This document shows, piece by piece, positions 36,146-63,932 of a stretch of 64,000 bases of DNA. The DNA is from Archaeoglobales archaeon. Lineage in GTDB: Archaea > Halobacteriota > Archaeoglobi > Archaeoglobales > Archaeoglobaceae. Position 1 is the first letter of the stretch. Each line of letters opens with the position of its first letter. The notes under the pieces are model-generated. The model did not search any database and was not told the origin of the DNA. It saw only the letters and a program-made list of their open reading frames with translations. Both the position numbers and the translations under genes were made by a program. The stretch spans positions 124,001 to 188,000 of the forward strand of contig JASFYH010000001.1 in the NCBI GenBank assembly GCA_030055595.1. The letters are read 5' to 3'.

Positions 36146-36155
36146 TCAAACCACC

Positions 36156-36950: not shown

Positions 36951-36954
36951 ACAT

Positions 36955-37958: not shown

Positions 37959-37963
37959 GATAG

Positions 37964-41816: not shown

Positions 41817-42889
41817 AAAGATCTTATTGCATTGCCCAAATGGGATCTAACGATCTCTTTTTTGCCAAGAACATTCACATGAGCCCCCTCCTCGTTAACC
41901 GCTCTCTGATAGCCCAGTTCTCTAAGCCTCGTCATAGTCCTCTCGCCCGAAGAAACTCCGACCGAGTATTCAAATGCATTTGGTTTTAAAGCCTGAGGGA
42001 TCCCAAGGATGATCGCAGAAGAATAATCAAAGCTTTTTGCTAACTCAAGTGCTTTATCCGCTGAGTATGCATACTCATCCAGAGAACCGCTAAAATGGTC
42101 AACTTCCACTCCATTCTCGCTTAGTTGTTTGAGAATATTCCTTGCATCTTCTCTAACCTTCGGCAACCCTCTGCTATCTTCGAGGTTTGCAATAACACTG
42201 AAGTCCCCTCCAAGCTTTTTATTAGCGTTGTTGATCGCAAGGATTATGTCCGCATAAAGGTAAGCGGTTTCCTTCTTTGCGTTAAGAATGACAAGCAAAC
42301 CGTCCTGCAATTTTTCAATGAGCTCTTTGGCAACCTCTCTGACATCATCCCCCGGGGTAGGGGCAATGTAGCCCGGGATGGCAACCCCACGCTCTCGCTC
42401 GACTTTGCTTGCCATTTTAAGAATTCTGGTCTGCCTTTCGAGTTCCTCTTTGTCTATTATGCCAAGCTTAAATGCGGACTCAACAACCCTCATCGCTCCT
42501 TCAGTGTTATCCCCGCATCCAGAAACGTTTGCACAAACAACCTTCGTGGGAATTTTAGCTTCTGAAACCTCAGCTTCGAGATCTTCGCCGATGATCGTAG
42601 TGCAACAGGTTCCGACGACGCCAATGATCTCTGGTTTAAAGTCGCTGTAAACCGCATCAAGCACTTCTAAAAGTTTCTGCTTTCCCCCAAGCACGACGTC
42701 AAAGTCGCTCATGGACGTTGTAAAGATCTTTACTCCATCTCTTTCAAGCAATCTCAAAGCCCTGAAATTGCATCCTGGAGGTCCATGCAAGACGATGTGC
42801 CTGCAATTAAGGTCTCTGAGCGTGTAGAGAGCTGCAGCTATTGGATTTGGTCTCGGATGGACTGCATATGGTAGACTTTTAAGCTTCAT
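41795..42889 (-). CDS. cfbD: Ni-sirohydrochlorin a,c-diamide reductive cyclase, NifD-like component
   Basis: HIVLHGPPGCNFRALRLLERDG; VGTCCTTIIGEDLEAEV; adjacent to cfbB/cfbE. Confidence 0.9.
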   Translation of the reverse strand: MKLKSLPYAVHPRPNPIAAALYTLRDLNCRHIVLHGPPGCNFRALRLLERDGVKIFTTSMSDFDVVLGGKQKLLEVLDAVYSDFKPEIIGVVGTCCTTIIGEDLEAEVSEAKIPTKVVCANVSGCGDNTEGAMRVVESAFKLGIIDKEELERQTRILKMASKVERERGVAIPGYIAPTPGDDVREVAKELIEKLQDGLLVILNAKKETAYLYADIILAINNANKKLGGDFSVIANLEDSRGLPKVREDARNILKQLSENGVEVDHFSGSLDEYAYSADKALELAKSFDYSSAIILGIPQALKPNAFEYSVGVSSGERTMTRLRELGYQRAVNEEGAHVNVLGKKEIVRSHLGNAIRSLCGSPEF

Positions 42890-47081: not shown

Positions 47082-47603
47082 ATGGATACAAATAGTCTGA
47101 TCTCTTCTCTAATTATTAGTGAGAATTTTGGAGAAAAGCTTGAGGAGATCGTGAAGAAGAGACTTAAAATGAACATAAGGGAGTTTGCAAAAGAGGCGAA
47201 AATTCCACAAAGCACGATCTACAAGCTTCTTTCGGGCGAGAGAGAGCCAAATTTGGGCACACTCAGGAAAATCGCGGAAACGATAGCAAGATTCACAAAG
47301 AACTCAGAAGAGTTCATAGCGGTAATCGCTTCAAGATCCGCACTTAATCAGCTAACGAGCTATGAGATTGATGTGGAGGGTAAGGGAGTCAAGGTAAGAG
47401 AATATCCCGCGAACTCTTTTGACGAGGCAGTAGTTTCTGCAGTGAAGGCGGAAAGAGATGGAGCAAAGGCTATTGTTTGCGCTCCGATTCTGAGTCCAGT
47501 TCTTGAAAAGATCTTAAGTGTTCCAATTGTCACGATCATCCCAAAAAACGATCTACTGGACTCGATTAAAATTGCAGCTAAGAAAGGTCTCTCAAAGCCT
47601 TAA
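47082..47603 (+). CDS. XRE-type HTH regulator with conserved C-terminal domain
   Basis: MNIREFAKEAKIPQSTIYKLLSGEREPNLGTLRKIAETIA; divergent from the ABC transporter. Confidence 0.8.
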   Translation: MDTNSLISSLIISENFGEKLEEIVKKRLKMNIREFAKEAKIPQSTIYKLLSGEREPNLGTLRKIAETIARFTKNSEEFIAVIASRSALNQLTSYEIDVEGKGVKVREYPANSFDEAVVSAVKAERDGAKAIVCAPILSPVLEKILSVPIVTIIPKNDLLDSIKIAAKKGLSKP

Positions 47604-49363
47604 CCTACTCCACAACCCCCTCTGTCTGCCTTTTCAAGCATACCCGACTCTTCAGTGGTTGCAGTAACTTCTAAGGACTCTGCAAATCTAAGTTCTATTT
47701 CTACAAGCTTTTTGATGATCTCCTCTGGAGAGCCAATCCCCTGAAGCTTCCCGCTCAGCATTAGTGCAACTCGATCACATGTTAGCTTCGTGAAGTGCAT
47801 GTCGTGTGATATTATAAGTATTGTAGTCTTAAACTCCTCTCTCACTTTGTTGAGTGTATTTGCAACTTCTACCTTTGTAATCGGATCCATCGTTCCCGAA
47901 GGCTCATCCAGTATGAGGATTCTCGGTTCTCTGATCATAACCTGTGCTAAAGCGACTCTATGCCTCTGTCCTTCGCTCAGTTCGTCAGGGAACTTCATGA
48001 GTATAGACTCCGCCTCTTGTTCATCGAATCCGATGCTTGTTAGAATATCGACCGCCCTAATTCTTGCGAACTCTGACGGTAGATCAAGGCTTATGCAGTC
48101 TGTTAGGTTGTCAAGCACTGTTCTGTGCGGGTATAAGCTGTATTCTTGGTGTAGGATTCCAATGTAGGGCGTCGCTCTGCCTCTACCAGTAATTCCTGGT
48201 GTCCTCATGTCAACCCATTCGTCACCAATTCGGACAAATACTTCTCCAGCTGTGACATCCGCAATTCCCGCTATGATCCTCGACAGAGTTGTTTTTCCAG
48301 AACCACTTGGACCGAGTATTCCAAAGATCTCTCCTTCTTTAACTTCAAAGGAAACTCCATCAACCGCCTTAACAACACCTCTGCTAACAGAATAGTAGTA
48401 TTTCTTTACGTCTTTTAACCTTAAGATGTCTTCTTCAAGCTTGAATTCTGCTTTGATTTTTTCAGCACTAACCTGACTCAGGAATTTTTGGATTAAATCT
48501 TCTGGTCTTCCCTCAGCTACAATTTCACCATCTTCAAGCCATACAACTCTGTCAGCCAATTCTTTGATAACTTCTGGAATGTGAGAGGTTAAAACCATCG
48601 TCTTTTTTGCGTTCTTTATGTATCTTCTCAGCGTCTCTAAAATAAGCCTTGTATTATCAGGATCCAGAGTTCCAGTAGGCTCATCTGCCAGCAGTAGAAT
48701 TGGTTCTATTGCAATCTGCCTCGCTAAAATAACCCTCTGCTTTTCACCACCACTAAGATCTCTTGCGATCGTAAGAATTCGGTGTCCCAAGTTTACCGCT
48801 TTAAGCAACTCCATCGCCCTGTTTACAACATTATTTGAATAAGCAGCCTTCTCGAGGATCTCGAGTCTTCTTGTTGTTCCAAAAGCTATTCTTGTCTCGG
48901 TTTCAGAGCTTATAATTGCCTCCATTACGTTCTCCAATGCAGATTTCTCGCTAAAAAGTGCAAAGGTTCGCTGTAGCATTATTCCGACTTTTTTCCTGAT
49001 TGCAGAAGCGAGTTCTTTATCTTCAACTCTCCATATATCTATTTCTCTCTTTTTCAGTATTTCTCCGCATCTCGGACAACTTTGCCCATCTTTACTTGGC
49101 AAATCAACCCAGTAACAGTTCGGACAGATTGAGAGAATATATAGAACTCTGCCCTCACTCGGCTCATAGTCTTTGTATCCTCTTATAAGATGAATAAGCA
49201 CAGACTTACCGCTTCCGCTTACACCGATAATACCGAGTGTTTCCCCTTCTTTAATGCTCAGATTGATCTTTTTTAGAGCAAAATGATCGCCAAATTTTTT
49301 TGAGATGCCTTCTAATCGTATAATCTCGTCAGCCAATATCTCCACCTCCAGTGCCAGAAGCAA
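47600..49363 (-). CDS. atwA: MCR activation ATPase, component A2 (double ABC ATPase)
   Basis: Two ABC domains (GVSGSGKSVLIHLIRG; GPSGSGKTTLSRIIAG) with CPNCYW...CPRCGEIL insertion; neighbours mmp3 and mcr. Confidence 0.88.
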   Translation of the reverse strand: MLLALEVEILADEIIRLEGISKKFGDHFALKKINLSIKEGETLGIIGVSGSGKSVLIHLIRGYKDYEPSEGRVLYILSICPNCYWVDLPSKDGQSCPRCGEILKKREIDIWRVEDKELASAIRKKVGIMLQRTFALFSEKSALENVMEAIISSETETRIAFGTTRRLEILEKAAYSNNVVNRAMELLKAVNLGHRILTIARDLSGGEKQRVILARQIAIEPILLLADEPTGTLDPDNTRLILETLRRYIKNAKKTMVLTSHIPEVIKELADRVVWLEDGEIVAEGRPEDLIQKFLSQVSAEKIKAEFKLEEDILRLKDVKKYYYSVSRGVVKAVDGVSFEVKEGEIFGILGPSGSGKTTLSRIIAGIADVTAGEVFVRIGDEWVDMRTPGITGRGRATPYIGILHQEYSLYPHRTVLDNLTDCISLDLPSEFARIRAVDILTSIGFDEQEAESILMKFPDELSEGQRHRVALAQVMIREPRILILDEPSGTMDPITKVEVANTLNKVREEFKTTILIISHDMHFTKLTCDRVALMLSGKLQGIGSPEEIIKKLVEIELRFAESLEVTATTEESGMLEKADRGGCGVG

Positions 49364-49480
49364 TTCTCTCGGAAGTATTTATCCTTTGCTAAATTTTCCC
49401 CTACTCATCAATCATCGAATTTGAAAGAGTTTGGAAAACAATCGAATAGATTAAATACTAAGTTGCCAAATTCGAAATAC

Positions 49481-50971
49481 ATGAAGGTCAAGCTTAACGG
49501 CAAGGAAATTGAAGTCCCTCAGAATGCGACGGTTAAAGATCTTCTGCCTCATGAAGAACAACTTATTGTTATAGTCAGAGAGAAGAGAGACCAAGAAAAG
49601 AAGGCAGAAAACTTTAAGATTCAGATCGGTAAAGGAAATATAACCTTAAAAATAGAAAATCAGGAACTCTGGAATGCTATCGAGAGTAAAGTTCAGGGAT
49701 TGGAGATTGCTTGGAGGACTAAAAGAGTTCTTGCCTTCGGTCCTTTTTCCTGTGATCTGAAGTGCTCAACTGTCAGCCATGAATATGAGCCGGGTGAGGT
49801 TGTTCTGAGCTTTGCTGGCGGTAGCATAGAAAGTGCATATCTGATGTTTGCGGTGACACGCTACCCCCTAACGCACTGCACGATCTCGGACGGAGTAGTT
49901 GCAAGAGTTATAGAAGGTCTTGGAGTCCTAAGATCGCTTGAGATCGGTGAAAAGATCGAAAAAGTAGAGCCAGTATTTGGTAGAAAACATTCAGGTGGGA
50001 TTAGGATCAGAGCCAATAAAGATGAGCAACTTTACGAAGGAGATGAGATCTATTCTCAAGTTTCTGTAGATCTACGCAAAGATCTCCCGAGTGCCTCAGA
50101 ATACGCTATGGCGGTTCTTGAAAGAAAAAATGCCGTGGAGGAGTTCACAAACACTTTTATTAGGTTTGAGGGTTTAAAGGGCATAAGCATAGGAGAGGAA
50201 AATCCAGAGAAGAGAATTAGAGGTGCGGTTACTATAAGGAGAAGCGGAAAGAATTCTGGGAGTGTTTACTTTTACCTCAGAGATCGGATGCCCCACAGAG
50301 ATCATTGCGTCGTTGGATTTGTTGAAAGCGGGATAGAGCTTCTGGAAGTTGCTCAAAGGGGGGATAAGATAAAGATCGTTACAAATCCAAGCAGAATTGA
50401 TCTCGTTGGCTTGACTCAGGCTGAGGCAGAAACTTTTCTCGCTAAAAGAGGCTTGAGACAGCATAGAGAGGGAGATACGGAAGATCATGCAGTTATTGTC
50501 TCACAGATCCCAGAAACAAGTCTTGAGATTCTATCAAGAGGAGAAGTAGCCACTTTTGGTGTTAAAGCTTCTAAAGTGATAAAGGTCAGGCTATTTGACG
50601 AATTAGCTCCCAAGACCGCACTTTATTTCAGAATTGCTACGGGTCTTGTTAGCAAAAAGGTTGGAAGACTTCCAGTATACTTCAAAACAAGGGATCTTGT
50701 TGTATTTAAACCAAACATATCTTTTGAGGAGCCTTTGATTCCTGAGAACACTCCGAGGGTGTTAGTTAGTGCTGGTGAGATCGGAGTCACAAACATGTCC
50801 AGAAAACATGCGGGGCTTATAGGGGTCAGATTCAATGATAGCAAGGACTTTGGACCGACTGCAGAGCGTTTTGAGTCAACTAACATTGTAGGAAGAGTAA
50901 TTGAGAATTTTGATTTGATCAGAGAGGCAAGGGAGGGAAATGAGATCTATATCATGGAGGTGCGAGAATGA
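49481..50971 (+). CDS. mmp3: Methanogenesis marker protein 3 (UPF0288)
   Basis: MKVKLNGKEIEVPQNATVKDLLP; AFGPFSCDLKCSTVSHEYEPGEVVLSFAGG; listed ORF starts 60 nt further upstream. Confidence 0.88.
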   Translation: MKVKLNGKEIEVPQNATVKDLLPHEEQLIVIVREKRDQEKKAENFKIQIGKGNITLKIENQELWNAIESKVQGLEIAWRTKRVLAFGPFSCDLKCSTVSHEYEPGEVVLSFAGGSIESAYLMFAVTRYPLTHCTISDGVVARVIEGLGVLRSLEIGEKIEKVEPVFGRKHSGGIRIRANKDEQLYEGDEIYSQVSVDLRKDLPSASEYAMAVLERKNAVEEFTNTFIRFEGLKGISIGEENPEKRIRGAVTIRRSGKNSGSVYFYLRDRMPHRDHCVVGFVESGIELLEVAQRGDKIKIVTNPSRIDLVGLTQAEAETFLAKRGLRQHREGDTEDHAVIVSQIPETSLEILSRGEVATFGVKASKVIKVRLFDELAPKTALYFRIATGLVSKKVGRLPVYFKTRDLVVFKPNISFEEPLIPENTPRVLVSAGEIGVTNMSRKHAGLIGVRFNDSKDFGPTAERFESTNIVGRVIENFDLIREAREGNEIYIMEVRE

Positions 50972-51747
50972 AGGTTCGCTATTTCGTTTTATCTCCAGAT
51001 GCGGGCATTAATCCAGAGGAACTTGTTTTCAGGATCATGGAGTCAGGATTTCAGGGAATAGTCAAGGAGACGTGCTTCGGAGCGATCGTTGAAGGCGAAG
51101 ACGAGGAAGTCGATAAACTTGCGGAGGGGTTAAGAGAGGAATATTACTACTTATTCTCAAAAGAGAGAGGTTATCCAGTTGGGGATAAGAGGATCTGCAG
51201 AGCACAGCGTGGAGGAGGGGCAAGAACTGGCTTTTATCAGATCGAATACGAGTCGGAATTTTTGCCTTTCATTTCGGAAGCTTTAAAAGATTTGAAATTC
51301 GAAAAAGTCAGGAGTCCAAAAAAGGTAATTGTTCACCCGATAAACAGTCTCATACTGTCGGATCTAATTGAAAGAATTGGTCATAAGCCTCTAACGATGA
51401 TGTCCGAGATCGGAAAGCTTGTAAGGGATCCAGAGATCGATGCACCTCCGAGAAACATAACTACTGAGGACGTGATCAGAGGTCTAAAGTATGGTTCTAT
51501 AGAGATGCCCTCTGGCATAAGGGGTAGGCTTGGAGTCTGGGATGAGCTAATTGAAGAGGCTGAAGCGGGTTTAATTGCTAACTACGAATACGCATTTGGC
51601 TGTGCGGGATGCACGCATAACGACGTCCTGATCTACTTAATAAAGGCAAAGAAGATCCCGTATGTATGGCTTAACCTTCCAAAGACTCCGGAAGAGGCAA
51701 AAGAATTTGTTGGCAAGATCTATGAATTTCTAAGCACTTTGGGGTGA
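50968..51747 (+). CDS. Fusion of methanogenesis marker proteins 6 and 5
   Basis: Residues 1-~115 resemble Mmp6 (YFVLSPDAGINPEELV...RICRAQRGGGARTGFYQIEYE); ~118-259 resemble Mmp5 (KVIVHPINSLILSDLIERIGHKPLTMMSEIGKLV...YEYAFGCAGCTHNDVL). Confidence 0.75.
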   Translation: MKVRYFVLSPDAGINPEELVFRIMESGFQGIVKETCFGAIVEGEDEEVDKLAEGLREEYYYLFSKERGYPVGDKRICRAQRGGGARTGFYQIEYESEFLPFISEALKDLKFEKVRSPKKVIVHPINSLILSDLIERIGHKPLTMMSEIGKLVRDPEIDAPPRNITTEDVIRGLKYGSIEMPSGIRGRLGVWDELIEEAEAGLIANYEYAFGCAGCTHNDVLIYLIKAKKIPYVWLNLPKTPEEAKEFVGKIYEFLSTLG

Positions 51748-51751
51748 TCAG

Positions 51752-53005
51752 ATGGTAAAAGTTGCTTTAATTTCATGCGGAGCGGAATACAGCGGTGTTT
51801 ACCATGAGATCGAGAAGGCAATTGAAATGGTTGGTGGCGAAGTCGTGATTCCCGAGACGGATCTTCAGGATGTTAAAGAAGTTGACGAGGAATTTGGAAT
51901 CGTGGTGAAGGGTGGCGATTTAAAGCTGATGATGGCAAGGGCAAAGTCTGTTGCTGAAGATCGATGCGATGCGGATGCGGTGTTTGTTGCAACATGCTTT
52001 AGATGTGCTGAAGGAGCTCTTGTTAGAAACGCGGTTAGAAAATATCTTCAGGATGCTCGAATTCCTGTTGTTGCATACTCCTTTACTGAGAGAAGCAAAG
52101 CGGGTAATTTCCTGCTCAGAATGGAAGCTCTTGTAAATATTGTCAGGAGAAAGCATTTGCTTGCGAGAACAAAGCATGAGGGGCTTACTGTTGGTGTCGA
52201 TTCAGGCTCAACAACAACTAAAGCGGTAGTTATGAGGGACAATGAGATCATCGGAACCGCTTGGAGACCTACGGTAGACATAATAGAGACCGCAGACAAA
52301 GTTCTTGAAGAAGCTCTAAAAATGGCAGGAGTTAAGCTTTCTGAAGTTGAGGTTATTGGAACTTCTGGCTATGGTAGATTTTTGATTGGAGAACATTTAA
52401 AGGCGGGAATCATTCAGGACGAAATAACTGTGGGAGCAAAGGGTGCAACATTTCTTGCGGGAAAGCAGAAAGGCGACGCAACGATCCTCGACATCGGAGG
52501 AATGGATAACAAGGCAATCACCGCACACGACAGCTTGCCAGACAGCTTTACTCTTGGCGGGATCTGTGCGGGCTCATCTGGTAGATTTCTTGAAACGACC
52601 GCAAGAAGACTTGGAGTAGACATAGCGGAATTCGGAGAAATGGCTACAAGAGGAGACTACAGAAAGATAAGGATGAATTCATACTGCATAGTCTTCGGAA
52701 TGCAAGATCTTACCACTGCACTCGCAGGAGGGGCTAAGGCAGAAGACGTTGCTGCAGCAGCATGCAGAAGTGTTATAGACCAAATCGTTGAGCAACAGCT
52801 TCAGGAGATAACACTCAGAGAACCAATAATTGAAGTCGGTGGAACTTCATTGCTTAAGGGGCTTGTTAAGGCGGTTAGAGAAGCTCTTGGTATGGAAGTA
52901 ATTGTGCCCAAATATTCTCAGTTTGCAGTAGCCACGGGCATGGCTTTTGTTGCCTCGGGGGCAAGGGAGGAGAAAGTTTATGAGGTTAGTAGTAGAGTCG
53001 CCTGA
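51752..53005 (+). CDS. mmp15: Methanogenesis marker protein 15 (BadF/HgdC-type activator ATPase)
   Basis: VGVDSGSTTTKAVVM; LGGICAGSSGRFLETTARRLG; MVKVALISCGAEYSGVYHEIEKAIE. Confidence 0.87.
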   Translation: MVKVALISCGAEYSGVYHEIEKAIEMVGGEVVIPETDLQDVKEVDEEFGIVVKGGDLKLMMARAKSVAEDRCDADAVFVATCFRCAEGALVRNAVRKYLQDARIPVVAYSFTERSKAGNFLLRMEALVNIVRRKHLLARTKHEGLTVGVDSGSTTTKAVVMRDNEIIGTAWRPTVDIIETADKVLEEALKMAGVKLSEVEVIGTSGYGRFLIGEHLKAGIIQDEITVGAKGATFLAGKQKGDATILDIGGMDNKAITAHDSLPDSFTLGGICAGSSGRFLETTARRLGVDIAEFGEMATRGDYRKIRMNSYCIVFGMQDLTTALAGGAKAEDVAAAACRSVIDQIVEQQLQEITLREPIIEVGGTSLLKGLVKAVREALGMEVIVPKYSQFAVATGMAFVASGAREEKVYEVSSRVA

Positions 53006-53549
53006 TGAAGAGGGCAGAATCGCTTACGAGAGAACAATAAACACTGTTCTTTCGGAATCAACGATAAAGGGATTTATAAAGCGCTTGAAAGTATTTGCAG
53101 ATCCAAAGGAGCCAGTTTTTATTCTTATAATTCAATTCGCAAGAGGTGGCGGAGTTTTGAAGTTTTCTGAGGTTGCTACGCTAAAATTTGTTAGAGAAGG
53201 GGCAATAGTTGTCTGCGAAAATGACAAATTCATGCCTGAAGTTCTAAGAATTTTGTGGGAAAAATTTGGAAGCGAAAAAGTGGAGCAGTTGAGCAGATAC
53301 GAGATCATGGTAAAAGGTGAAATTGGTGAAGACATTCTGAATACCATTATTTACGATCCCGAAAAGGAGTTGATGGTAGGACTTATGGATCTAATACTCA
53401 GAATAGTGCCCGAGGGCTTCAGAATCAGAAAGTATATTCGCAAAGAGGGTTTAATGGCTCTAATCGCTTCTGAGGATCCAATAAAGAATGAGTGGGTTGA
53501 AAAAGCCCTGAAAATGATGGAGGGAGCAGATGATACCTCTAATCTTTAA
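52980..53549 (+). CDS. mmp17: Methanogenesis marker protein 17
   Basis: MRLVVESPDEEGRIAYERTINTVLSE...; position between mmp15 and mmp7; start reassigned from 52947. Confidence 0.82.
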   Translation: MRLVVESPDEEGRIAYERTINTVLSESTIKGFIKRLKVFADPKEPVFILIIQFARGGGVLKFSEVATLKFVREGAIVVCENDKFMPEVLRILWEKFGSEKVEQLSRYEIMVKGEIGEDILNTIIYDPEKELMVGLMDLILRIVPEGFRIRKYIRKEGLMALIASEDPIKNEWVEKALKMMEGADDTSNL

Positions 53550-54414
53550 TGGCGGTGTTTATGGTCATCAGGAATTCGAAGATCTTGTTTACGATCTTGG
53601 AGGTTTTGTGATCCAGAAGAATTTTGCACAAACTGAAGTCACGATCTTCTTCATTGTGCCTGAGGAAGATCTGGAAAGAGTAAAAGAAAAGGCGTTAGAG
53701 TTAAAAGCAGAGCTTAAAAACGCTCCTTTAGCTGGATCAGAGATCGCTGTGGTAGTCCCAACAATTTCGATCTATCATTTGCCTCATCACTCATGCGACA
53801 TTGCGGAATATTTGCGAAGAAAAGGGGCGAAGACTAACATGGTTGGCTTGTCGAGAGGCGTCGGGAAAAGACTTGCAAGGCTTACCGCTTTTGAGAGGGA
53901 TCTGATCAATGAACACGACGTCGCAGTGTTTTTGTTCGGAAATTTTAGGGAGTGTGTGACTGAGAAAATGAAGCTCCTGAGAGAAATCACAGTCCCTGTG
54001 GTTGCTACAGGATTTCCAAAGATCTCACCACCTGAGGGAGTAGAATATGTGCCAAATTTGGGCAGAATTGTTGGGAAATTTAGCAGAGAAGGCGACATAG
54101 ACCTTCTTGAAAATGTAGCAAAGGCTGTAGAGAGACTGGTAGATAAGAAGAGAAGAGTCTTTGAGCGTTTTGAAGTTCCACCTTATTATCTCAAGAGCGA
54201 GGTAGAAAATCAAATTCCAGAGATAAATGAAAGCACTTCTCCCGCACCAATTACAGTTAAGCTCGATGGGCTTAGAATAAAGCTACCTTACGAAAAATTC
54301 GGTGAAAAGATTAGAAACGTTCGCATACTGGATTTTAAGCTTGGAGACATCTGCAACGTTTTTCCATCAGTGGTTGAGGGACAAACGCTTGTTAGATTTG
54401 CGGGATCTTGGTAG
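53530..54414 (+). CDS. mmp7: Methanogenesis marker protein 7
   Basis: MIPLIFNGGVYGHQEFEDLVYDLGGFVIQKNFAQTEVTIFF; PHHSCDIAEYLRRKGAKTNMVGLSRGVGKRLARL. Confidence 0.85.
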   Translation: MIPLIFNGGVYGHQEFEDLVYDLGGFVIQKNFAQTEVTIFFIVPEEDLERVKEKALELKAELKNAPLAGSEIAVVVPTISIYHLPHHSCDIAEYLRRKGAKTNMVGLSRGVGKRLARLTAFERDLINEHDVAVFLFGNFRECVTEKMKLLREITVPVVATGFPKISPPEGVEYVPNLGRIVGKFSREGDIDLLENVAKAVERLVDKKRRVFERFEVPPYYLKSEVENQIPEINESTSPAPITVKLDGLRIKLPYEKFGEKIRNVRILDFKLGDICNVFPSVVEGQTLVRFAGSW

Positions 54415-54590: not shown

Positions 54591-55484
54591 ATGGACGTAA
54601 GCACGGGATTGGGGCTTGTTGCACTTATGGGTGCAGCAGCTACCATTGCGGGAGCAGCAGAGGATCTTGAAAGTGATGTCGGTTCTCAGAGCAATCCAAA
54701 CTCACAGGTTCAGTTAGCTCCACAGGTTGGAGTTCTACACAGGATCTTCAACAAAGCAATTTCTGGAGAGCCACCCGCTTATGCCTTCTACTCGAGCATC
54801 GCCGCGACTGTTGCATGGATTTTAATGAACGCAAACTTCAACATAATCGCTGCATTTGCCATTGGAGCCTTTGTTGCGTCGATCTTCCATGGAATTTATG
54901 CAAGCACCGCCTACATGGGCAGACTTGCAAGCCAGCGCAGATATGGACAACCGATCTACTTGGACGTGATCTATAGCCATCTACCGCCAATCATGGCTCA
55001 TGGCTTTATTGCGACTTTCTGCATTCTCGGGCTCTCTTATATACTGTGGGCTTACTTTGAGCATCCGTTCCCGTTTGTGTTGCTTGCATTCATTTGGGGC
55101 ATAACGGTTGGAGCAATTGGTTCCTCCACTGGAGACGTGCACTATGGTTCTGAGAGAGAGTATCAGAACAAACCATTCGGCGCGGGTCTGAATGCTGCAC
55201 TCTCAGGCAAGATCGTTACCAAAGCAGAAATTGGAACAAGGAGCAGTATAGACAACGCATGGTTCTGTGCCAAGTTTGGCGGTCCAGCAACGGGAATAAC
55301 GTTTGGTCTTATCGTATTCTTGGACAACTGGAGAACACTCGTTTTTGATGCGTTCTGGGCAATCATCGCTGGCTTTGTGATCGTTGCACTGCTGATCGTG
55401 GCAAATAGGCTAATAGAAGTATGGGCAAGGAAGAATTATGGACCATATCCTGAGAAGCTTGCAATGCTTGAAGGAGGTGCTTAA
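54591..55484 (+). CDS. mtrE: Methyl-H4MPT:CoM methyltransferase subunit E
   Basis: LGLVALMGAAATIAGAAEDLESDVGSQSNPNSQVQLAPQ. Confidence 0.95.
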   Translation: MDVSTGLGLVALMGAAATIAGAAEDLESDVGSQSNPNSQVQLAPQVGVLHRIFNKAISGEPPAYAFYSSIAATVAWILMNANFNIIAAFAIGAFVASIFHGIYASTAYMGRLASQRRYGQPIYLDVIYSHLPPIMAHGFIATFCILGLSYILWAYFEHPFPFVLLAFIWGITVGAIGSSTGDVHYGSEREYQNKPFGAGLNAALSGKIVTKAEIGTRSSIDNAWFCAKFGGPATGITFGLIVFLDNWRTLVFDAFWAIIAGFVIVALLIVANRLIEVWARKNYGPYPEKLAMLEGGA

Positions 55485-55486
55485 AG

Positions 55487-56176
55487 ATGGATCCAATAAC
55501 AATCATTATCGGGCTTATAATTGCGGGCATTCTGATCGTCATCGGTGTTCACTTGATCCCAGTCGGTGGAGCGCCAGCTGCGATGGCAATGGCTACTGGA
55601 GTCGGAACGGGCACAGTTCAGCTCGCTACAGGAGCGGGTTTGACGGGCTTGGTTAGCGCGGGCTACATGTATCACTTCGCCGGAGTTCCAATGAGCTATG
55701 TTCTGTTGAGCGGTGCGATCGGAAGCATGCTCATGCTGGGCATTACGATGCTAATTGGAAACGTCATTTACATTCTTGGTGTCGGTGTTCCGCCAGTGTC
55801 TGCAAAGGTCAAGTTTGATCCGATAACAAAGGACAGACAGGATCTATATGTTTCTCCAGGCACAGAAGGACATGGAGTTCCAACAGTTTCGTTCGTTAGT
55901 GGAATCATCGGGGCATTCTTTGGAGGAATTGGAGGTGCTTTGACCTATGTGTTGCTTAACGAACTTGGCATATCGCCAGCAATTTCAGCTTTCATTGCGA
56001 TAGGCTTCTTCTTGGCTAATGCGGTTCTTGCAGCATACAACATTGCGGGAACAATTGAGGGGTTCCATGATCCCAAGTTCAAGAGATTGCCAAAGGCTAT
56101 TGTTTCAAGTCTGATCGTTTCGGGCTTCATAGCGGTAATTCTCGTTCTTAGCTCTGTTGGAGGTGTAAAGCTATGA
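55487..56176 (+). CDS. mtrD: Methyl-H4MPT:CoM methyltransferase subunit D
   Basis: HLIPVGGAPAAMAMATGVGTGTVQLATGAGLTGLVSAG. Confidence 0.95.
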   Translation: MDPITIIIGLIIAGILIVIGVHLIPVGGAPAAMAMATGVGTGTVQLATGAGLTGLVSAGYMYHFAGVPMSYVLLSGAIGSMLMLGITMLIGNVIYILGVGVPPVSAKVKFDPITKDRQDLYVSPGTEGHGVPTVSFVSGIIGAFFGGIGGALTYVLLNELGISPAISAFIAIGFFLANAVLAAYNIAGTIEGFHDPKFKRLPKAIVSSLIVSGFIAVILVLSSVGGVKL

Positions 56177-56982
56177 GCGCCGGAGCTTGCAGTGCTAAAG
56201 CGGGAGCGGTGGAAGAGAAGAAAATCTCAAACAACCTTATTGCGGTCCTCGGGATCGTTGGATCGCTCGCTGGGATCTATGTCGCATCGATGTTCAACTT
56301 CTTGGCATTCGTTGGGGGAGTGGCAATAATCCTTGCGACACTCTGGGGCGCTAATGGAGTAAGAACTGTAGCTAAATACGGCATTGGCACTGGAGTTCCC
56401 TCGGTTGGTATGGTTGCTCTCGGTGGCGCGGTTGCAGCGGTCTTTGTAGGGATTTACCTAACAACTAAAACCGTTCTACTTGCACCCGTTGTCGCTCTTG
56501 TCCTTGCATTGCTCACGGGTTTGCTCATAGGCATTTCTGCAAGATACATTCTGAAGATGAACATCCCAGTAATGGTTAGATGCATGACAGAGATCTGCGG
56601 AGCGGGAGCTTTGCTGATCTTAGCCCATGTAGCCACAATAACTGGCTCATTCGAGCTGTTTTACCTTCGAAGCATCTCAGAGACGGGCATAATAATGATG
56701 GTCTTTATAGTCGGAGCTCTTGGAATTCTTCACCCATACAATGCCTGTCTTGGAGCGGACGAAAGGCAAGGAAGGACTCTAAAGCTCGCTTTGGCAACTG
56801 GAAGCGCTCAGGTGGTCTTAGCAGGAATCGCTTCGCTTTACTTCTTGGGGCTACCGGGTATTATAACGATCCTCTTTGGGGCACTTGCATGGTTTGTGAC
56901 TTACAGCATATTCGTAAAGACTTCGTTTGAGGAAGGAATTGTGTTTAACACGGGACTTATACCGGAGGTTGAGCATAAATGA
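56173..56982 (+). CDS. mtrC: Methyl-H4MPT:CoM methyltransferase subunit C
   Basis: GIGTGVPSVGMVALGGAVAAVFVG; HPYNACLGADERQGRTLKLA. Confidence 0.94.
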   Translation: MSAGACSAKAGAVEEKKISNNLIAVLGIVGSLAGIYVASMFNFLAFVGGVAIILATLWGANGVRTVAKYGIGTGVPSVGMVALGGAVAAVFVGIYLTTKTVLLAPVVALVLALLTGLLIGISARYILKMNIPVMVRCMTEICGAGALLILAHVATITGSFELFYLRSISETGIIMMVFIVGALGILHPYNACLGADERQGRTLKLALATGSAQVVLAGIASLYFLGLPGIITILFGALAWFVTYSIFVKTSFEEGIVFNTGLIPEVEHK

Positions 56983-57275
56983 CGTTCGCGAAAGTTTCTT
57001 CTGAACCGGGTTTAGTGCTCGACGCGGTTCGTGGTGTGCTGGGCGAAGAGAGAGAAGATTTGCTCTTCTACCCCCTCTCAGACGTCGAAGAAGCGGTGAA
57101 GAAGCTCGAAGCAATTGCAGATGATCTCGTAAACTCTTTAGATCCGCTGAAAAACTTCAAAGCTTCTTATCAGGGAAGGGACAAAACACTATACTACGCG
57201 GGTATGACAACTGGAGTTTTTTACGGACTTGTTATTGGGCTAATTATAGCGTTCCTAATCGCGTGGGTGATGTGA
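56979..57275 (+). CDS. mtrB: Methyl-H4MPT:CoM methyltransferase subunit B
   Basis: 98 aa with C-terminal TM; position between mtrC and mtrA. Confidence 0.88.
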   Translation: MTFAKVSSEPGLVLDAVRGVLGEEREDLLFYPLSDVEEAVKKLEAIADDLVNSLDPLKNFKASYQGRDKTLYYAGMTTGVFYGLVIGLIIAFLIAWVM

Positions 57276-57276
57276 T

Positions 57277-58005
57277 ATGGCGAACAAAGTTGAGCCCGCT
57301 GCGGGATGGCCAAAGATTAAGGGAGAATACTTGGTAGGCGATCCGAAGAGCTGTGTTGTCGTAGCAACTCTCGGAAGCCACTTGGATGAAAAGAAGCTCA
57401 TAGAAGCCGGAGCAGGAATGGCTGGAATCTGCAAAACAGAGAACATAGGAATTGAAAAGATGGTTGCAAATATCGTTGCAAATCCGAACGTTAGATTCCT
57501 GATTCTCTGCGGTGCAGAAGTTACTGGTCATCTTACTGGAGATGCAATTATAAAGTTGCACAAAAATGGAATAAAGAACAACAGAATAGTTGAGGCAAAA
57601 GGTGCAATTCCATACATCGAAAATCTCCCCGCTGAGGCTATAGAGAGATTTAGGAAGCAGGTAGAGATTGTAGAAATGATCGGCGTCGAAGATCTTTCAG
57701 CAATAACGGCAAAGGTAAAAGAATGCATCTCAAAGGATCCCGGAGCTTTTCCTGAGCCACCGATGGTTGTAGAAATTAAAGAGGAGAAAAAGGAAGAGAT
57801 TGCGGAAGGGGAGATTTATCCAGTGCCCGGAGAGATCGCAAACATCGAATCTTGGGTCAGGGATATCGAAGGAAAAATCAAAGAGGTTGCTCTGCTTAAC
57901 AAGTTCTCCGCAGGGGTCTATGCGGGCAGATTTCAGGGATTTTGGATTGGTCTAACTTTGGCGATGATCGTTTTTGGCGTGTTAATGTGGAGGGTAGGAA
58001 TATGA
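57277..58005 (+). CDS. mtrA: Methyl-H4MPT:CoM methyltransferase subunit A (corrinoid)
   Basis: VEPAAGWPKIKGEYLVGDPKSCVVVATLGSHL; LCGAEVTGHLTGDAIIKLHKNGI; C-terminal TM. Confidence 0.96.
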   Translation: MANKVEPAAGWPKIKGEYLVGDPKSCVVVATLGSHLDEKKLIEAGAGMAGICKTENIGIEKMVANIVANPNVRFLILCGAEVTGHLTGDAIIKLHKNGIKNNRIVEAKGAIPYIENLPAEAIERFRKQVEIVEMIGVEDLSAITAKVKECISKDPGAFPEPPMVVEIKEEKKEEIAEGEIYPVPGEIANIESWVRDIEGKIKEVALLNKFSAGVYAGRFQGFWIGLTLAMIVFGVLMWRVGI

Positions 58006-58202
58006 GCGGATTTCCCAGAATCATGAAACCAAGAGCTGTAAAAATCGACGAAATTGTAAACAGAGCTGATTACAGCGCACAGTTAATTGCAAGAGCTCAG
58101 AAGCTTGAATCTGGAGTTAACATGGCGGGATTGACAGGCTTTGTTCTCGGTCTTCTGATGGCTGTGCTTCTTGTTGTAATCCCATTGCTCTGGCTGGGGT
58201 GA
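58002..58202 (+). CDS. mtrF: Methyl-H4MPT:CoM methyltransferase subunit F
   Basis: 66 aa; start at 58002 overlaps the mtrA stop; one TM. Confidence 0.85.
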   Translation: MSGFPRIMKPRAVKIDEIVNRADYSAQLIARAQKLESGVNMAGLTGFVLGLLMAVLLVVIPLLWLG

Positions 58203-58208
58203 TCGAAA

Positions 58209-58436
58209 ATGGATAAGAAAGAGAAGGAGATCCCGAGAGCTTATGTTGACACCGCTGAATACATGGCACTGCTCGAAAGAATAAAGAAGGTCGAGGAGAA
58301 AGTGGAATTCTTCCAAGCAGAGGTTGCACAGCAGGTTGGCAAAAAGATTGGCAGGGATATTGGGATACTTTATGGGCTTGTTTTTGCCCTAATTCTGGTA
58401 GTTATTTATCTTTTGCTGAAATCACCTTGGGGGTGA
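58209..58436 (+). CDS. mtrG: Methyl-H4MPT:CoM methyltransferase subunit G
   Basis: 75 aa; YMALLERIKKVEEKVEFFQAEVAQQVGKKIGRDIGILYGL. Confidence 0.9.
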   Translation: MDKKEKEIPRAYVDTAEYMALLERIKKVEEKVEFFQAEVAQQVGKKIGRDIGILYGLVFALILVVIYLLLKSPWG

Positions 58437-58440
58437 GAAA

Positions 58441-59376
58441 ATGTTCAAATATGAAAAGGAGCAGAAGGTTTTTGAATTTGGAAAGATAAAGGTCGGCGGT
58501 CAGCCGGGCGAATATCCGCCAGTGCTTGTCGGGACAATCTTCTATAAGGGGCACAAGATCGTAAGCGATGACCACAAGGGAGTATTTGACAAACAAAAGG
58601 CTGAAGAGCTATGGAAGATGCAACAGGAATTCTCTGATCTAACTGGGATCCCATGCATGCTCCAGATCGTTGGCGAGTCTGCAGAAGCTATGGAGAAGTA
58701 TATCGAATGGTTTAGCAACATTGCGGACGCCCCATTCCTTATTGATTCCACTGACGCAAATGTTAGGATCCATGGAGCAAAGTTCGCCACAGAGATCGGA
58801 GTTCATAACCGAGCGATCTACAACTCGATCAACCCAAGTTTGACTCAACAGGAAGTTGACGCACTCAAGAACAGCAAGATCGACTCTGCAATTGTCCTTG
58901 CTTTCAACCCGACTGACAACACCGTAAAGGGCAGACTTGACATTTTGCAGAAGGGCGGTGCGGGCTTGAGCAAGGGTTTGCTTGACATTGCAAACGAATG
59001 CGGAATTAAGAGAATCCTGATCGACGTCGCAGCTACACCGCTTGGAGCGGGAGCGGGGGCGACATTTAAGGCGGTAATGGCGGTCAAGGCAAAACTTGGA
59101 TTACCCGCGGGTGGTGCACCGCACAACATTCCATCCGCATGGCCATGGATCAAGAAGCTGAAAAAGGAGAAAAAAGAAGTATTTCCGCCTGCAGACATTG
59201 GCTCCAACCTGATCATGCAGATGCTCGGAGCGGACTTCTTGCTCTACGGACCTATTGAGAATGCACCGATGATCTTTCCAAGCACCGCAATGGTCAGCAT
59301 AATAGTTTCTGAAGCGGTAAAAGAACTCGGAGTAAGCGTGCAGGCCGAAGCTCATCCGATCAAGAGACTTGTCTAA
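58441..59376 (+). CDS. mtrH: Methyl-H4MPT:CoM methyltransferase subunit H
   Basis: FKYEKEQKVFEFGKIKVGGQPGEYPPVLVGTIFYKGHKIV. Confidence 0.96.
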   Translation: MFKYEKEQKVFEFGKIKVGGQPGEYPPVLVGTIFYKGHKIVSDDHKGVFDKQKAEELWKMQQEFSDLTGIPCMLQIVGESAEAMEKYIEWFSNIADAPFLIDSTDANVRIHGAKFATEIGVHNRAIYNSINPSLTQQEVDALKNSKIDSAIVLAFNPTDNTVKGRLDILQKGGAGLSKGLLDIANECGIKRILIDVAATPLGAGAGATFKAVMAVKAKLGLPAGGAPHNIPSAWPWIKKLKKEKKEVFPPADIGSNLIMQMLGADFLLYGPIENAPMIFPSTAMVSIIVSEAVKELGVSVQAEAHPIKRLV

Positions 59377-59385
59377 GGTGCAGGA

Positions 59386-59790
59386 ATGAAAGACACAGTT
59401 GCTTTGCTCATAGGACACGGAAGCAAGCTTGAAGTTCAGAAAAAAATAATTGAGAGACTTGCAGAGACTATAAGGAATAAAAAAATTTTTGCAGAAGTAT
59501 TCTACGCTTTCATGAATGTAAACAAACCGACGATAAGGGAAGCTATGACCGAGATCGTGAGCAAAGGTTATAGAAAGGTCATAGCTATCCCTGTATTTCT
59601 TTCAGAGGGCATTCACACGACTGAGGACATACCAAGAGAGCTCGGGATTGAAAATGGCAAGCGAAAGGGCATAGTGGATTTCAACGGAGTAAAAGTTGAG
59701 CTTTGGTATGCAAAAACCATAGGCTACGATGATAGAATTGCGGAAATACTCGTTGAAAGGGGGAAGGAAGCGGTTGAGAATTCGAAGTAA
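59386..59790 (+). CDS. cfbA: Sirohydrochlorin nickelochelatase (CbiX-like)
   Basis: LLIGHGSKLEVQKKIIERLAETI; VIAIPVFLSEGIHTTEDIPRELG; other cfb genes in window. Confidence 0.88.
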   Translation: MKDTVALLIGHGSKLEVQKKIIERLAETIRNKKIFAEVFYAFMNVNKPTIREAMTEIVSKGYRKVIAIPVFLSEGIHTTEDIPRELGIENGKRKGIVDFNGVKVELWYAKTIGYDDRIAEILVERGKEAVENSK

Positions 59791-59842: not shown

Positions 59843-61141
59843 ATGGCTGAAGAAGTTAAAGAAATTCCAAAATCCGAATGGGCTTTGCAAAGGTATCTAT
59901 ATACTCGAGACATCTCGAGCGCTCCTGTAATCAACTTGCTTTTAAAGCAAGTCGATGTCATTTATCAGCCAAGAGACGAGAAAGAAGTAATAGAAGTTTT
60001 AAGGATCGCTGAAAAGGAGGGGGCAACTGTAGTCCCGAGGGGAGCGGGAACATCGGGTTATGGTGGTGTTTTACCTCCTAAGGATATAGCCCTATTCCGT
60101 CTCTCCAAGAGAAAGACAATAATGATTGATTTCACAAGGATGGACAATTTTGAAATTGATGAAGAGAAACAGATCGTTGCATGCTCTCCGGGAGCGGTTT
60201 GGTGGGATATTGAGAAGGAGTTGAACAAGAAAGATCTTACGCTTAGAGTTTATCCGACAAGCGCTCCTTCTTCAACTGTTGCTGGATGGATCGCTCAAAA
60301 CGGTTATGGGGTTGGAAGCCTCAAATATGGCGGGATAGCTGACAACGTCGAAAAGATCAGAGTTGTCGACTTCAATGGAGTTAGGGAGATTGAAGGAAAA
60401 GATCTGAAGTATTATGTGGGGATGGAAGGCATAACTGGACTAATAACGAAGGCATGGGTAAAAGTTAAAGAAATGGAGGACATGAAATACTACGGATTCC
60501 ATGTTTCTGCAAAGGAAGCAAACAAGATCGTTTTTGCTGGCGAGCATTATGCAGGTCTTTTCCTCGACGCAGGCTACGTTAAGCTGAAAAACGAGGCTTT
60601 TGGCACAGAAATGCCAGAAAAGGATGTTTTGATGATAGCAACGACAGAAAAGCTTGACGGAGACGAAAGCCTTGGTGAAGAGATCTGGGAAAAGAGATTC
60701 TACCCTATGAGGGTTAGAAGACTTGGTCCTGGATTGGTTGCTGCTGAGAACGTCCTGCCAGCAGAATCGATTCCCGCTTATCTCAACAGGCTTAACAAGA
60801 TGATAAAGAAACCACATGGTAGTGAAATCTGGTATTCAAAAGGTAAGAAAGGGGCGGTGCTGACATTCATACCCTCCGACGAGAGAAAGTTCATTGGCTA
60901 CACAATGACTTGGCTAAACAGCATCCGAGCTCTGAAGACTGCGAAAAGAATGCGTGGTGTTCCTTATTCCACGGGCTTTTATCTTAGTTCTGAGGCAAAG
61001 TTGCTCTTGGGCAGTGATTATGCGGAGCTGAGAGAATTTAAGAGACAAGTTGATCCGAAGAATCAGCTCAATCCCGGAAAGGTGTTCCCCACGGGAGCTC
61101 TCCCGCTTGCTATGAGAATTGCTCAGAAGGTGATCCCATGA
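59843..61141 (+). CDS. FAD-linked oxidase, GlcD / D-lactate dehydrogenase-like
   Basis: VVPRGAGTSGYGGVLPPKD; PTSAPSSTVAGWIAQNGYGVGSLKYG; C-terminal DPKNQLNPGKVFP. Confidence 0.85.
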   Translation: MAEEVKEIPKSEWALQRYLYTRDISSAPVINLLLKQVDVIYQPRDEKEVIEVLRIAEKEGATVVPRGAGTSGYGGVLPPKDIALFRLSKRKTIMIDFTRMDNFEIDEEKQIVACSPGAVWWDIEKELNKKDLTLRVYPTSAPSSTVAGWIAQNGYGVGSLKYGGIADNVEKIRVVDFNGVREIEGKDLKYYVGMEGITGLITKAWVKVKEMEDMKYYGFHVSAKEANKIVFAGEHYAGLFLDAGYVKLKNEAFGTEMPEKDVLMIATTEKLDGDESLGEEIWEKRFYPMRVRRLGPGLVAAENVLPAESIPAYLNRLNKMIKKPHGSEIWYSKGKKGAVLTFIPSDERKFIGYTMTWLNSIRALKTAKRMRGVPYSTGFYLSSEAKLLLGSDYAELREFKRQVDPKNQLNPGKVFPTGALPLAMRIAQKVIP

Positions 61142-62304
61142 AGCTCGAAAAAGAGTTAAACGATATGGTAACAGCTTGTGCACAGTGCTTCTACTGCAGA
61201 GTTTGTCCAGCTTTTCAAACATTGAAGTGGGAGAGCGTTTCGCCAAGAGGAAGAGTTTACATGCTAAAGGGACTGCTAAAGAAGAAGATCAAGCTCGAAC
61301 CTCAGCTTGTAGAGGACTTCTACAAGTGCACCACCTGCGGGGCATGCGAGGAGCAATGTCAAACTGCGCTAAAGCTTGTAGAGCTCTGGGAAGCGGCAAG
61401 GCACGAGTTTGTTAAAGAGGGGCTCGCACCACTTGCGGTTCACAAAAAGCTTAGAGAACTTGCACAGAAAACTGACAACCCCTACGGAGAGCCAAAAGAA
61501 AAGAGAGAGGAGTGGATTAAGGGCTACAAGTATGAAGACAAGGCAGAAATCATGTATTTTGCGGGATGCACAGGAAGCTTCAGAGCGGTTGAGCTTGCAA
61601 AGAACACTGTTGACTTATTCAATAAAGCGGGGCTTAAATTTGCATATGCGGGCAAGGATGAGTATTGCTGTGGATCGCCATTCCTCAGGACTGGGCAAAG
61701 AGATTTGGCTTACGAGTTATTCAAAAAGAACTATAATGAGTGGAAGAAGAGAGGTGTGAAGACAATCGTTTCGAGCTGTGCGGGATGCTATAGAACAATA
61801 CTAATAGATTATCCAAAGATCGCAAAGGAGCTTGGCTTGGAGTGGAATTTCGAAGTTATGCACACATCACAGCTTGTGAACAAGCTAATAAAAGAGGGAA
61901 AGATTACTCCGCAGAAGCTGACAGCAAAGGTGACATATCACGATCCATGCCACCTTGGAAGGCATACGAAAGTTTATGAGGAGCCAAGAGAAGTGATAAA
62001 GGCAATAGGTGCAGAATTGGTTGAAATGGAGAGGAATAGAGGAGAATCGTTCTGCTGTGGTTCTGGTGGAGGAGTAAAGTCGCAGTTCAAGGATCTTGCG
62101 GGAGCCATCGGCAAAAACAGGATTGAGGAGGCAAAGGAAACCGGAGCGGAGTATCTTATTTCCTGCTGTCCATTCTGCAAGTATCATCTCAAGCAGATGG
62201 CTGAAGAGCAGGGAATTCCAATAAAGGTGGTAGATCTCGTAGAAGTCGTTAACAACCTTGCAGTCAAAGGCGAATATAAAGGCAATGACATTCGCTGTGC
62301 CTAA
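61138..62304 (+). CDS. Fe-S CCG-domain subunit (HdrD/GlcF-like)
   Basis: CAQCFYCRVCPAF, CTTCGACEEQC, EYCCGSPF, SFCCGSGGG...SCCPFC; start overlaps glcD-like stop. Confidence 0.87.
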   Translation: MKLEKELNDMVTACAQCFYCRVCPAFQTLKWESVSPRGRVYMLKGLLKKKIKLEPQLVEDFYKCTTCGACEEQCQTALKLVELWEAARHEFVKEGLAPLAVHKKLRELAQKTDNPYGEPKEKREEWIKGYKYEDKAEIMYFAGCTGSFRAVELAKNTVDLFNKAGLKFAYAGKDEYCCGSPFLRTGQRDLAYELFKKNYNEWKKRGVKTIVSSCAGCYRTILIDYPKIAKELGLEWNFEVMHTSQLVNKLIKEGKITPQKLTAKVTYHDPCHLGRHTKVYEEPREVIKAIGAELVEMERNRGESFCCGSGGGVKSQFKDLAGAIGKNRIEEAKETGAEYLISCCPFCKYHLKQMAEEQGIPIKVVDLVEVVNNLAVKGEYKGNDIRCA

Positions 62305-62325: not shown

Positions 62326-63060
62326 ATGGAGATTGCAGAGCTAAGAAGCAAGGCAAAGGAGCTGAGAGAAATTCTTGGTTTGAAAGGCTATATTGTGGGA
62401 GTTAAAATCTCTCCGAAAAGGCTTGAGGTTAATGCCAAAAGGCTAAAGGGCTACAGATACTGTCAAGCTCTAATGCAGGCAAGAAAGGGCGAGCATGTGC
62501 TTCTTGGAAAAGAAGAAATTGGTTGTGCAGCATCTGCAGACATATTTGGATTTAAAGAGCTTCCAGAAGGTTTTAAGACTGGGGAGCATTCGCTCAAGAT
62601 CGGAATTTCAAAGGAGCCTGAAGTTGGAGCTAAGATCTATGGGGACGTTGAAAAATTCTCCGCGGGGGAAGTTGAGGATCTATACTTGTTCCCGCTTGAA
62701 ACCGCAATAATGGAGCCAGACGTTGTTATTGTTGAAGATCAGCCTGAGAAGCTAATGTGGATCATGCTTGCTTATGTTAACGCAATTAAGGGCGAAAGAG
62801 TTGAGCTCAACACCGCGGTTATGAGAGCAACTTGTTTGGACTGCACCGCAATTCCCTATAAAAGGCAAAAAATAAACCTCAGCTTTGGCTGTTTTGGCTG
62901 TAGGATGGCTACCGACATAGCAGACGACGAAGCTTTGCTCGGATTTCCATTCAAATTCTTTGAAGAGATTGCAGACTACGTGAAGCACTTCTCAAAGAAT
63001 GCAATTCCAAGTGCAAGAGATAAGAAGGCTTATAAGGCACTTAAGGCTAAGGAAGGCTGA
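62326..63060 (+). CDS. DUF169-like protein
   Basis: RYCQALMQARKGEHVLLGKEEIGCAASADIFGFKELPEGF; LSFGCFGCRMATDIADDEALLGFPF. Confidence 0.7.
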   Translation: MEIAELRSKAKELREILGLKGYIVGVKISPKRLEVNAKRLKGYRYCQALMQARKGEHVLLGKEEIGCAASADIFGFKELPEGFKTGEHSLKIGISKEPEVGAKIYGDVEKFSAGEVEDLYLFPLETAIMEPDVVIVEDQPEKLMWIMLAYVNAIKGERVELNTAVMRATCLDCTAIPYKRQKINLSFGCFGCRMATDIADDEALLGFPFKFFEEIADYVKHFSKNAIPSARDKKAYKALKAKEG

Positions 63061-63065
63061 GAGAA

Positions 63066-63932
63066 ATGAAAGAAGAGACGTGGGACAAAGTTGGGAGCAA
63101 ATTTGCCCATCTGACCTCTGCCCACCCATGCTACAGCCATGAGGCACATTTCAAGTTTGCAAGAATTCATCTACCCGTGGCGCCGAAATGCAACATTCAG
63201 TGTGGCTACTGCACAAGAAAGATTGACAAATGCGAATATCGCCCGGGAGTTTCTGCGTGTATAGTGAATGCTGAAGAAGCTTTGAAGAGAGTTGAAGAAG
63301 CCCGAAAGAACTACCCGCTTAAGGTTGTAGGAATTGCTGGTCCTGGCGAAGTTCTCGCAAACGAAGAGTCTTTTAAGACTCTCAAGCTCGTTCACGAAAA
63401 ATATCCCGAGCTTATTCTCTGCATAGCAACAAATGGACTTCTTTTGGCTGACAAAATTGAAGATCTTAAGAGCTTGAACGTCAAAACGGTCACGGTGACA
63501 GTCAATGCTCTTGATCCAGAGATCGGGGCAAAGATCTATGAATGGGTTGAATACAATGGTAAAAGGCTCAGTGGTGTTGAAGGGGCAAAGTTTTTGATCG
63601 AGAAACAGCTTGAAGGAATAAAAGCTTCAGCTGAGGCGGGAATGGCTGTGAAGGTTAACACAGTGTTAATTCCCGGGCTTAATGAAGGCGAGATTGAAAA
63701 GATTGCGATTGAGGCTAAGAAAAGAGGAGCTTTTATAATGAATATAATCCCCCTTATTCCGCTCCACAGCTTTAAGGACTGGAGAAAGCCAACTTGCGAA
63801 GAGCTTGAAAAGGCAAGGGAGGTTGCTTCAAAGCATTTAAGAGTTTTTAGACTTTGCAGACAGTGCAGGGCTGACGCATGCGGAATTCCGGGAAAGGAGA
63901 AAGCTGTGGGTAGCACATACTTCCATGGTTAG
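63066..63932 (+). CDS. nifB: NifB-type radical SAM FeMo-cofactor (NifB-co) synthase homologue
   Basis: HPCYSHEAHFKFARIHLPVAPKCNIQCGYCTRKIDKCEYRPGVS; GIAGPGEVLANEE; CRQCRADACGIPG. Confidence 0.88.
   Translation: MKEETWDKVGSKFAHLTSAHPCYSHEAHFKFARIHLPVAPKCNIQCGYCTRKIDKCEYRPGVSACIVNAEEALKRVEEARKNYPLKVVGIAGPGEVLANEESFKTLKLVHEKYPELILCIATNGLLLADKIEDLKSLNVKTVTVTVNALDPEIGAKIYEWVEYNGKRLSGVEGAKFLIEKQLEGIKASAEAGMAVKVNTVLIPGLNEGEIEKIAIEAKKRGAFIMNIIPLIPLHSFKDWRKPTCEELEKAREVASKHLRVFRLCRQCRADACGIPGKEKAVGSTYFHG

Follow-up and report, generated by a model that had tools for sequence, protein, structure and literature searches.

A NifB homologue in an MCR gene block of a nitrogenase-lacking Archaeoglobales genome, candidate supplier of the MCR activation clusters

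NifB builds the [8Fe-9S-C] precursor cluster of the nitrogenase cofactor. Outside nitrogenase, clusters of the L-cluster type are reported in the published structure of the MCR activation complex (PDB codes, 8s7v, 8s7x, and 9h1l), at residues of McrC and Mmp7, seven of which bind, or may bind, clusters, with the carbide having as yet no definitive assignment (PMC12176620). A probable part for NifB in the formation of the activation clusters is already put forward in the same 2025 Nature paper, which also refers to work reporting NifB as essential to methanogens, among them species lacking nitrogenase (PMC12176620). In addition, a genetic study suggested that methanogens use nifB for more than nitrogen fixation (PMC8809328). 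On the genomic side, mcrABG of Methanomixophus-type Archaeoglobi are 77-83% identical to those of the korarchaeote Ca. Methanodesulfokora washburnensis and group with them, in conflict with the genome tree (PMC7380581); a search of the article by terms turned up no mention of nif genes.

The window, a 64-kb stretch of a 1.55 Mb, 99% complete Archaeoglobales assembly, carries a nifB gene (63066-63932, forward strand). The genome is that of an MCR-bearing member of the Archaeoglobi of the Methanomixophus type. Very probably, this NifB builds [8Fe-9S-C] L-type clusters for the MCR activation complex and not for nitrogenase, a reading based on (i) an intact gene under selection, (ii) the lack of nitrogenase, (iii) conserved ligands in the acceptor proteins, (iv) co-occurrence with McrC, (v) linkage at the operon level, and (vi) a phylogeny that matches that of McrC. 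The idea that NifB serves MCR activation is not new and is in print in essence (PMC12176620); genomic support, not proof, is added here, the new elements being a co-transferred block, the within-genus co-absence of NifB and McrC, and two kinds of exception.

A short-form NifB in a genome without nitrogenase

The gene has an ATG start and encodes a protein of 288 amino acids corresponding to the short form of NifB, a radical SAM domain without the NifX-like tail. Among curated family models, the open reading frame matches the nifB model TIGR01290 at 1.7e-88, compared to 6e-22 for the next-best model, MoaA, and a PDB search returns NifB structures (7jmb, 7bi7, and 7jma, ~1e-98) as the closest solved proteins, which bears out the sequence-only reading that had named the gene a nifB homologue. 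Misassignment of a MoaA or another radical SAM protein was considered and rejected, since the NifB score is far higher and the nearest solved proteins are NifBs. The score of 297.3 bits falls below the NCBIfam equivalog cut-off of TIGR01290 (343.65), a model of 441 positions that covers the tail absent from the NifBs of this clade; its members, including those of Methanoperedens and Korarchaeota, score 277-302 bits, and many other archaeal NifBs exceed the cut-off. The methanogen NifBs found without nitrogenase (M. jannaschii type; M. thermautotrophicus, 7bi7) are likewise short single-domain proteins with the same cysteine layout. The window NifB nevertheless differs from the M. jannaschii type in its clade, a separate one shared with the NifBs of Korarchaeota, the f25 ACR lineage, and Methanoperedens, in its score below the NCBIfam cut-off, and in its setting within an MCR/MTR gene block.

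The radical SAM motif CxxxCxxC is present as C42-x3-C46-x2-C49, within IHLPVAPKCNIQCGYC, and further conserved cysteines are located at positions 22, 56, 119, 244, 264, and 267; all nine of the nine cysteines in 7jmb/7bi7 align with cysteines of the window protein. The Cys/His ligand positions of the K1 and K2 [4Fe-4S] units in the solved NifB structures, grouped following PMC6053413, are all matched. The third K1 and K2 cysteines show a spacing slightly unlike that of M. acetivorans NifB and the same as in 7bi7, and a serine of the korarchaeal NifB aligns at C56. By analogy with the characterised enzymes, the protein most likely makes [8Fe-9S-C]. The genome holds one copy of nifB; among congeners, the gene is almost saturated at synonymous sites, against a pN of only 0.04-0.11, so that the sequences indicate an intact gene under strong purifying selection, not a relic.

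A profile search with PF00148 and the NifH family disclosed no nifHDKEN genes in either the 64-kb window or the whole genome. The only PF00148 (NifD-family) match in the genome is CfbD (41795-42889, reverse strand; TIGR03282, over cut-off), and the sole strong NifH-family match is CfbC (33192-34019, forward strand). As these are the only NifH/NifD-family proteins, the genome lacks nitrogenase; the earlier statement that the window contains cfbC and cfbD and no nitrogenase genes thus stands and extends to the whole genome, where the search found no nif operon. A nitrogenase hidden elsewhere was rejected on the same genome-wide search. In this the window genome resembles the methanogens that have NifB without nitrogenase.

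Activation-complex genes and the gene run ending in nifB

The mcrBDCGA operon (34478-39295, reverse strand) is identified by TIGR03256, TIGR03257, and TIGR03259, all over cut-off, with mcrD assigned from position and homology to the korarchaeal operon, and includes mcrC (36955-37575, reverse strand; TIGR03264, over cut-off; PDB match, 8s7v_I). The other components of the activation complex are encoded by the A2 ATPase gene (47600-49363, reverse strand; TIGR03269, 749.8 bits, over cut-off) and, on the forward strand, by mmp3 (49421-50971; TIGR03268, 5e-140, over cut-off), mmp17 (52947-53549; TIGR03291, 1e-40, over cut-off), and mmp7 (53530-54414; TIGR03274, 4e-102; PDB match, 8s7v_H). Mmp7 scores 341.3 bits against a cut-off of 349.15, and its match to 8s7v_H spans nearly the full length. 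The curated models thus place all five genes (A2, McrC, Mmp3, Mmp7, and Mmp17) in the window, as had been read from the sequence. Alignment to the 8s7v chains indicates that the seven reported cluster ligands of McrC and Mmp7 are all conserved, comprising (i) C12, H53, C59, and H124 of McrC (C12, H49, C55, and H118 in the solved complex) and (ii) H83, C89, and C142 of Mmp7 (H84, C90, and C143). By sequence, the window holds the same genes and the same cluster ligands as the solved complex, and the nitrogenase-precursor-type clusters mentioned in the sequence-only reading are those reported in PMC12176620. In the window, mmp3, mmp17, and mmp7 form a single run just upstream of the run extending from mtr to nifB. 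A single fusion protein of 259 amino acids (50968-51747) combines methanogenesis markers 6 and 5, which have separate genes in two other Archaeoglobi, G055 and G056.

The run ending in nifB lies on the forward strand, with every intergenic gap from mtrE to nifB being 52 nt or less, and comprises (i) mtrEDCBAFGH (54591-59376), named from inspection of their sequences and arrangement, the open reading frames having the same order in congeners; (ii) a gene for a CbiX-type chelatase (59386-59790; PF01903, 1.7e-24), a candidate CfbA that would catalyze the first step of F430 synthesis; (iii) a gene for a GlcD-like FAD protein (59843-61141; PF01565, 5e-30), overlapping by 4 nt with (iv) that of an HdrD-like CCG/4Fe-4S protein (61138-62304; PF02754 and PF13183, with TfrB/HdrB/HdrC-type matches); (v) a DUF169 (COG2043) gene (62326-63060; PF02596, 5e-50), 5 nt upstream of (vi) nifB. 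The genes mmp7 and nifB are 8.65 kb apart, in agreement with the ~9 kb first estimated. Shortly after nifB, just past the window end (L007 from 2405), comes the gene for methanogenesis marker 14, an order also found in the congeners. The DUF169 protein carries several conserved cysteines, kept in the korarchaeal block, and is 61% identical to the Korarchaeota counterpart in the same position; a search of solved structures and literature found no function or structure for this family.

The MCR cluster of Ca. Methanodesulfokora washburnensis (L012) displays the order A2-like, mcrBDCGA, cbiX, glcD, hdrD, DUF169, nifB, mm2, cfbB, cfbD, and cfbE, and the genes from mcrBDCGA through cfbE are also present in the window, with 49-81% identity. 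The korarchaeal cbiX-nifB block comes immediately after mcrA, whereas that of the window follows mtrH, with the mcr operon ~24 kb away on the opposite strand. A further arrangement occurs in G076, from a different family of the phylum, where overlapping A2 and mcrC genes are followed by a NarI-like cytochrome gene, hdrD, and nifB, with cbiX, cfbE, and cfbD farther along. In most methanogens inspected, gene positions place nifB away from mcr. The physical link between nifB and MCR is tighter than the window sequence alone could reveal, with the caveat that a gene neighbourhood is no proof of function.

Distribution and phylogeny of NifB and McrC

Co-occurrence of NifB with McrC, expected if the former supplies the activation complex, is found within the Archaeoglobi, across the phylum, and in the Korarchaeota, where McrC occurs in one of 23 genomes and the same genome has NifB. 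In a class sample of 59 Archaeoglobi, with nitrogenase-family proteins counted above 100 bits, NifB is found in five of six genomes with McrC, in eight of twelve with nitrogenase-family proteins, and in none of the 39 with neither MCR nor nitrogenase-family proteins; G050 (NifB and CfbD, no McrA or McrC, 73% complete) and G056 (McrA only) were set apart. Within the window genus, G000, G046, G051, G052, and G053 have NifB as well as McrC, and G047, G048, G049, and G054 lack the two along with CfbD. With MCR and NifB shared or missing as a pair among close relatives, the genus constitutes a natural experiment. Other Archaeoglobi, namely G038 (L060), G035, G037, and G041, three of them 99% complete, contain nitrogenase-family D/K-like proteins and no NifB match at 1e-30; these may be nitrogenase-like enzymes able to work without an L-cluster.

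In the phylum sample (393 genomes, completeness of 85% or more), NifB and McrC occur together in 232 genomes, McrC alone in five, NifB alone in 23, and neither in 133. The Fisher value for these counts (7e-73) disregards shared ancestry and is not readable as a probability; shared ancestry inflates the counts, with perhaps only two or three independent events. The 23 NifB-only genomes comprise (i) six Archaeoglobi with nitrogenase-family proteins; (ii) G385, with NifDK-like genes beside nifB; (iii) five with McrA, McrC being missing from the assembly; (iv) four from families whose other sampled members are mostly MCR-bearing, presumably assembly gaps; and (v) seven orphan cases. In G385 (L185), which has no MCR, the NifDK-like genes, a NifH/CfbC-like protein, and nifB form one cluster, and the branch is long. 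The McrC-only genomes are G055, G102, G131, G182, and G307. G102, an f7 genome that is probably ANME-1, has McrA and McrC and only a C-terminal NifB fragment (L193, near 9132-9341) located well inside an 87 kb contig, a possible pseudogene or assembly break. Given this fragment and the fragmented state of G131, G182, and G307, only G055, with its relative G056, is a firm McrC-only exception.

In a tree of 67 NifB sequences, the window genus is sister to the korarchaeal NifB (support 100/99), joined next by the ACR-bearing f25 lineage (94/70) and then by Methanoperedens and relatives. The NifBs of nitrogenase-bearing Archaeoglobi constitute two other clades, and the AU test rejects their union with the window genus, both for all nine sequences (p 2e-5) and for the main seven (p 0.007). 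The McrC tree discloses the same sister pair, the window genus and Methanodesulfokora (100/98), which points to a common history of NifB and MCR in this case.

Proposed role, exceptions, and alternatives

As in characterised NifBs, two [4Fe-4S] units held by the conserved Cys/His residues would be fused, and a SAM-derived carbide would be inserted at the C42/C46/C49 radical SAM site. The finished cluster may then pass, via a carrier for which the DUF169 protein is a candidate by position, to two sites on McrC and one on Mmp7, where the clusters would relay electrons to F430 while A2 spends ATP. The GlcD-HdrD pair is, also by position, a candidate electron donor; this was considered and not claimed, since a published proposal has an hdrD-glcD complex regenerating CoM and CoB (PMC6783470). 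Cluster synthesis, transfer, and use are thus predicted steps. No other known client of NifB is found in the window genome, in favour of a role in activation. The sequence-only view of NifB as a candidate supplier of the activation cluster gains from co-occurrence, linkage, and the tree, but it does not hold universally, as seen from genomes of the Polytropus type without NifB and from G063.

Two sets of genomes stand against the activation role. G055 and G056, Archaeoglobi that are 99% and 95% complete, each contain two divergent ACR-type McrAs and, by their agreement with what has been published on it, appear to be of the Ca. Polytropus type. No NifB was found in them down to E 1e-5, save one 26-bit radical SAM match in G056, although mmp3, mmp7, mmp17, and mcrC are present in G055 with all ligands (L169, C29) and mmp7 in G056 with all ligands (L183, C63; further loci of the two are L130, L131, L134, and L135); a binning artefact is less likely, given two independent near-complete assemblies. 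On the other hand, G063 (L157, L198-L254), a near-complete archaeal genome assembled as a single 1.07 Mb contig, encodes a NifB with all conserved cysteines, and searches by tblastn and profile, with working positive controls, found no MCR, F430 genes, McrC, Mmp7, or nitrogenase-family protein. Relatives of this NifB in f14 and f18 genomes (L158-L162, L188-L191) fall in the same clade (100/100). NifB presence alone does not predict MCR, and, since G063 keeps NifB with neither system, there are probably NifB clients besides nitrogenase and MCR.

These same genomes favour the alternative in which the NifB cluster serves a protein outside the known clients, the adjacency to MCR arising only from joint transfer of the block: orphan NifBs occur in G063 and its f14/f18 relatives, and the Polytropus-type genomes manage without NifB. 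The alternative is nonetheless unlikely, with NifB being lost together with MCR and CfbD within one genus and nifB being tied to mcrC and A2 in the separate arrangement of G076. Less probable still, and by a wide step, NifB would supply CfbC/CfbD, the F430 cyclase, instead of the activation complex. CfbD is the only NifD-family protein of the genome, cfbD and nifB are close together in Korarchaeota and in G076, and the incomplete G050 combines NifB and CfbD without McrC or McrA; however, [8Fe-9S-C] clusters are reported absent from CfbD (PMC12176620), and G055 has CfbD without NifB. That NifB is the leftover of a lost nitrogenase, as nitrogenase-family genes with nifB nearby in some other Archaeoglobi could suggest, can hardly be credited, being refuted in the main by the tree with its AU test and by purifying selection, with nifB also standing last in the mtr-cofactor gene run.

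Supply of the activation complex remains the preferred role. A broader joint reading, offered tentatively and doubtful as a whole, would make cbiX-glcD-hdrD-DUF169-nifB a dedicated module for MCR cofactor supply and reduction that moved whole with MCR between phyla, with DUF169 as the carrier from NifB to McrC/Mmp7, GlcD-HdrD as the reductase, and the Polytropus-type ACR activated by a NifB-independent cluster. If NifB serves MCR activation, the core cluster of nitrogenase belonged to methane metabolism in the window lineage, and, as argued in PMC12176620, this use probably predates nitrogen fixation. Concrete partner genes are indicated by the linked block. The exceptions carry equal weight: the Polytropus-type genomes raise the question of whether alkyl-CoM reductases can be activated without NifB. 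The orphan lineage, in turn, raises the question of what else uses such clusters; in the f14 and f18 genomes, nifB lies near SufB/D-type and HerA/NurA/Rad50-like genes.
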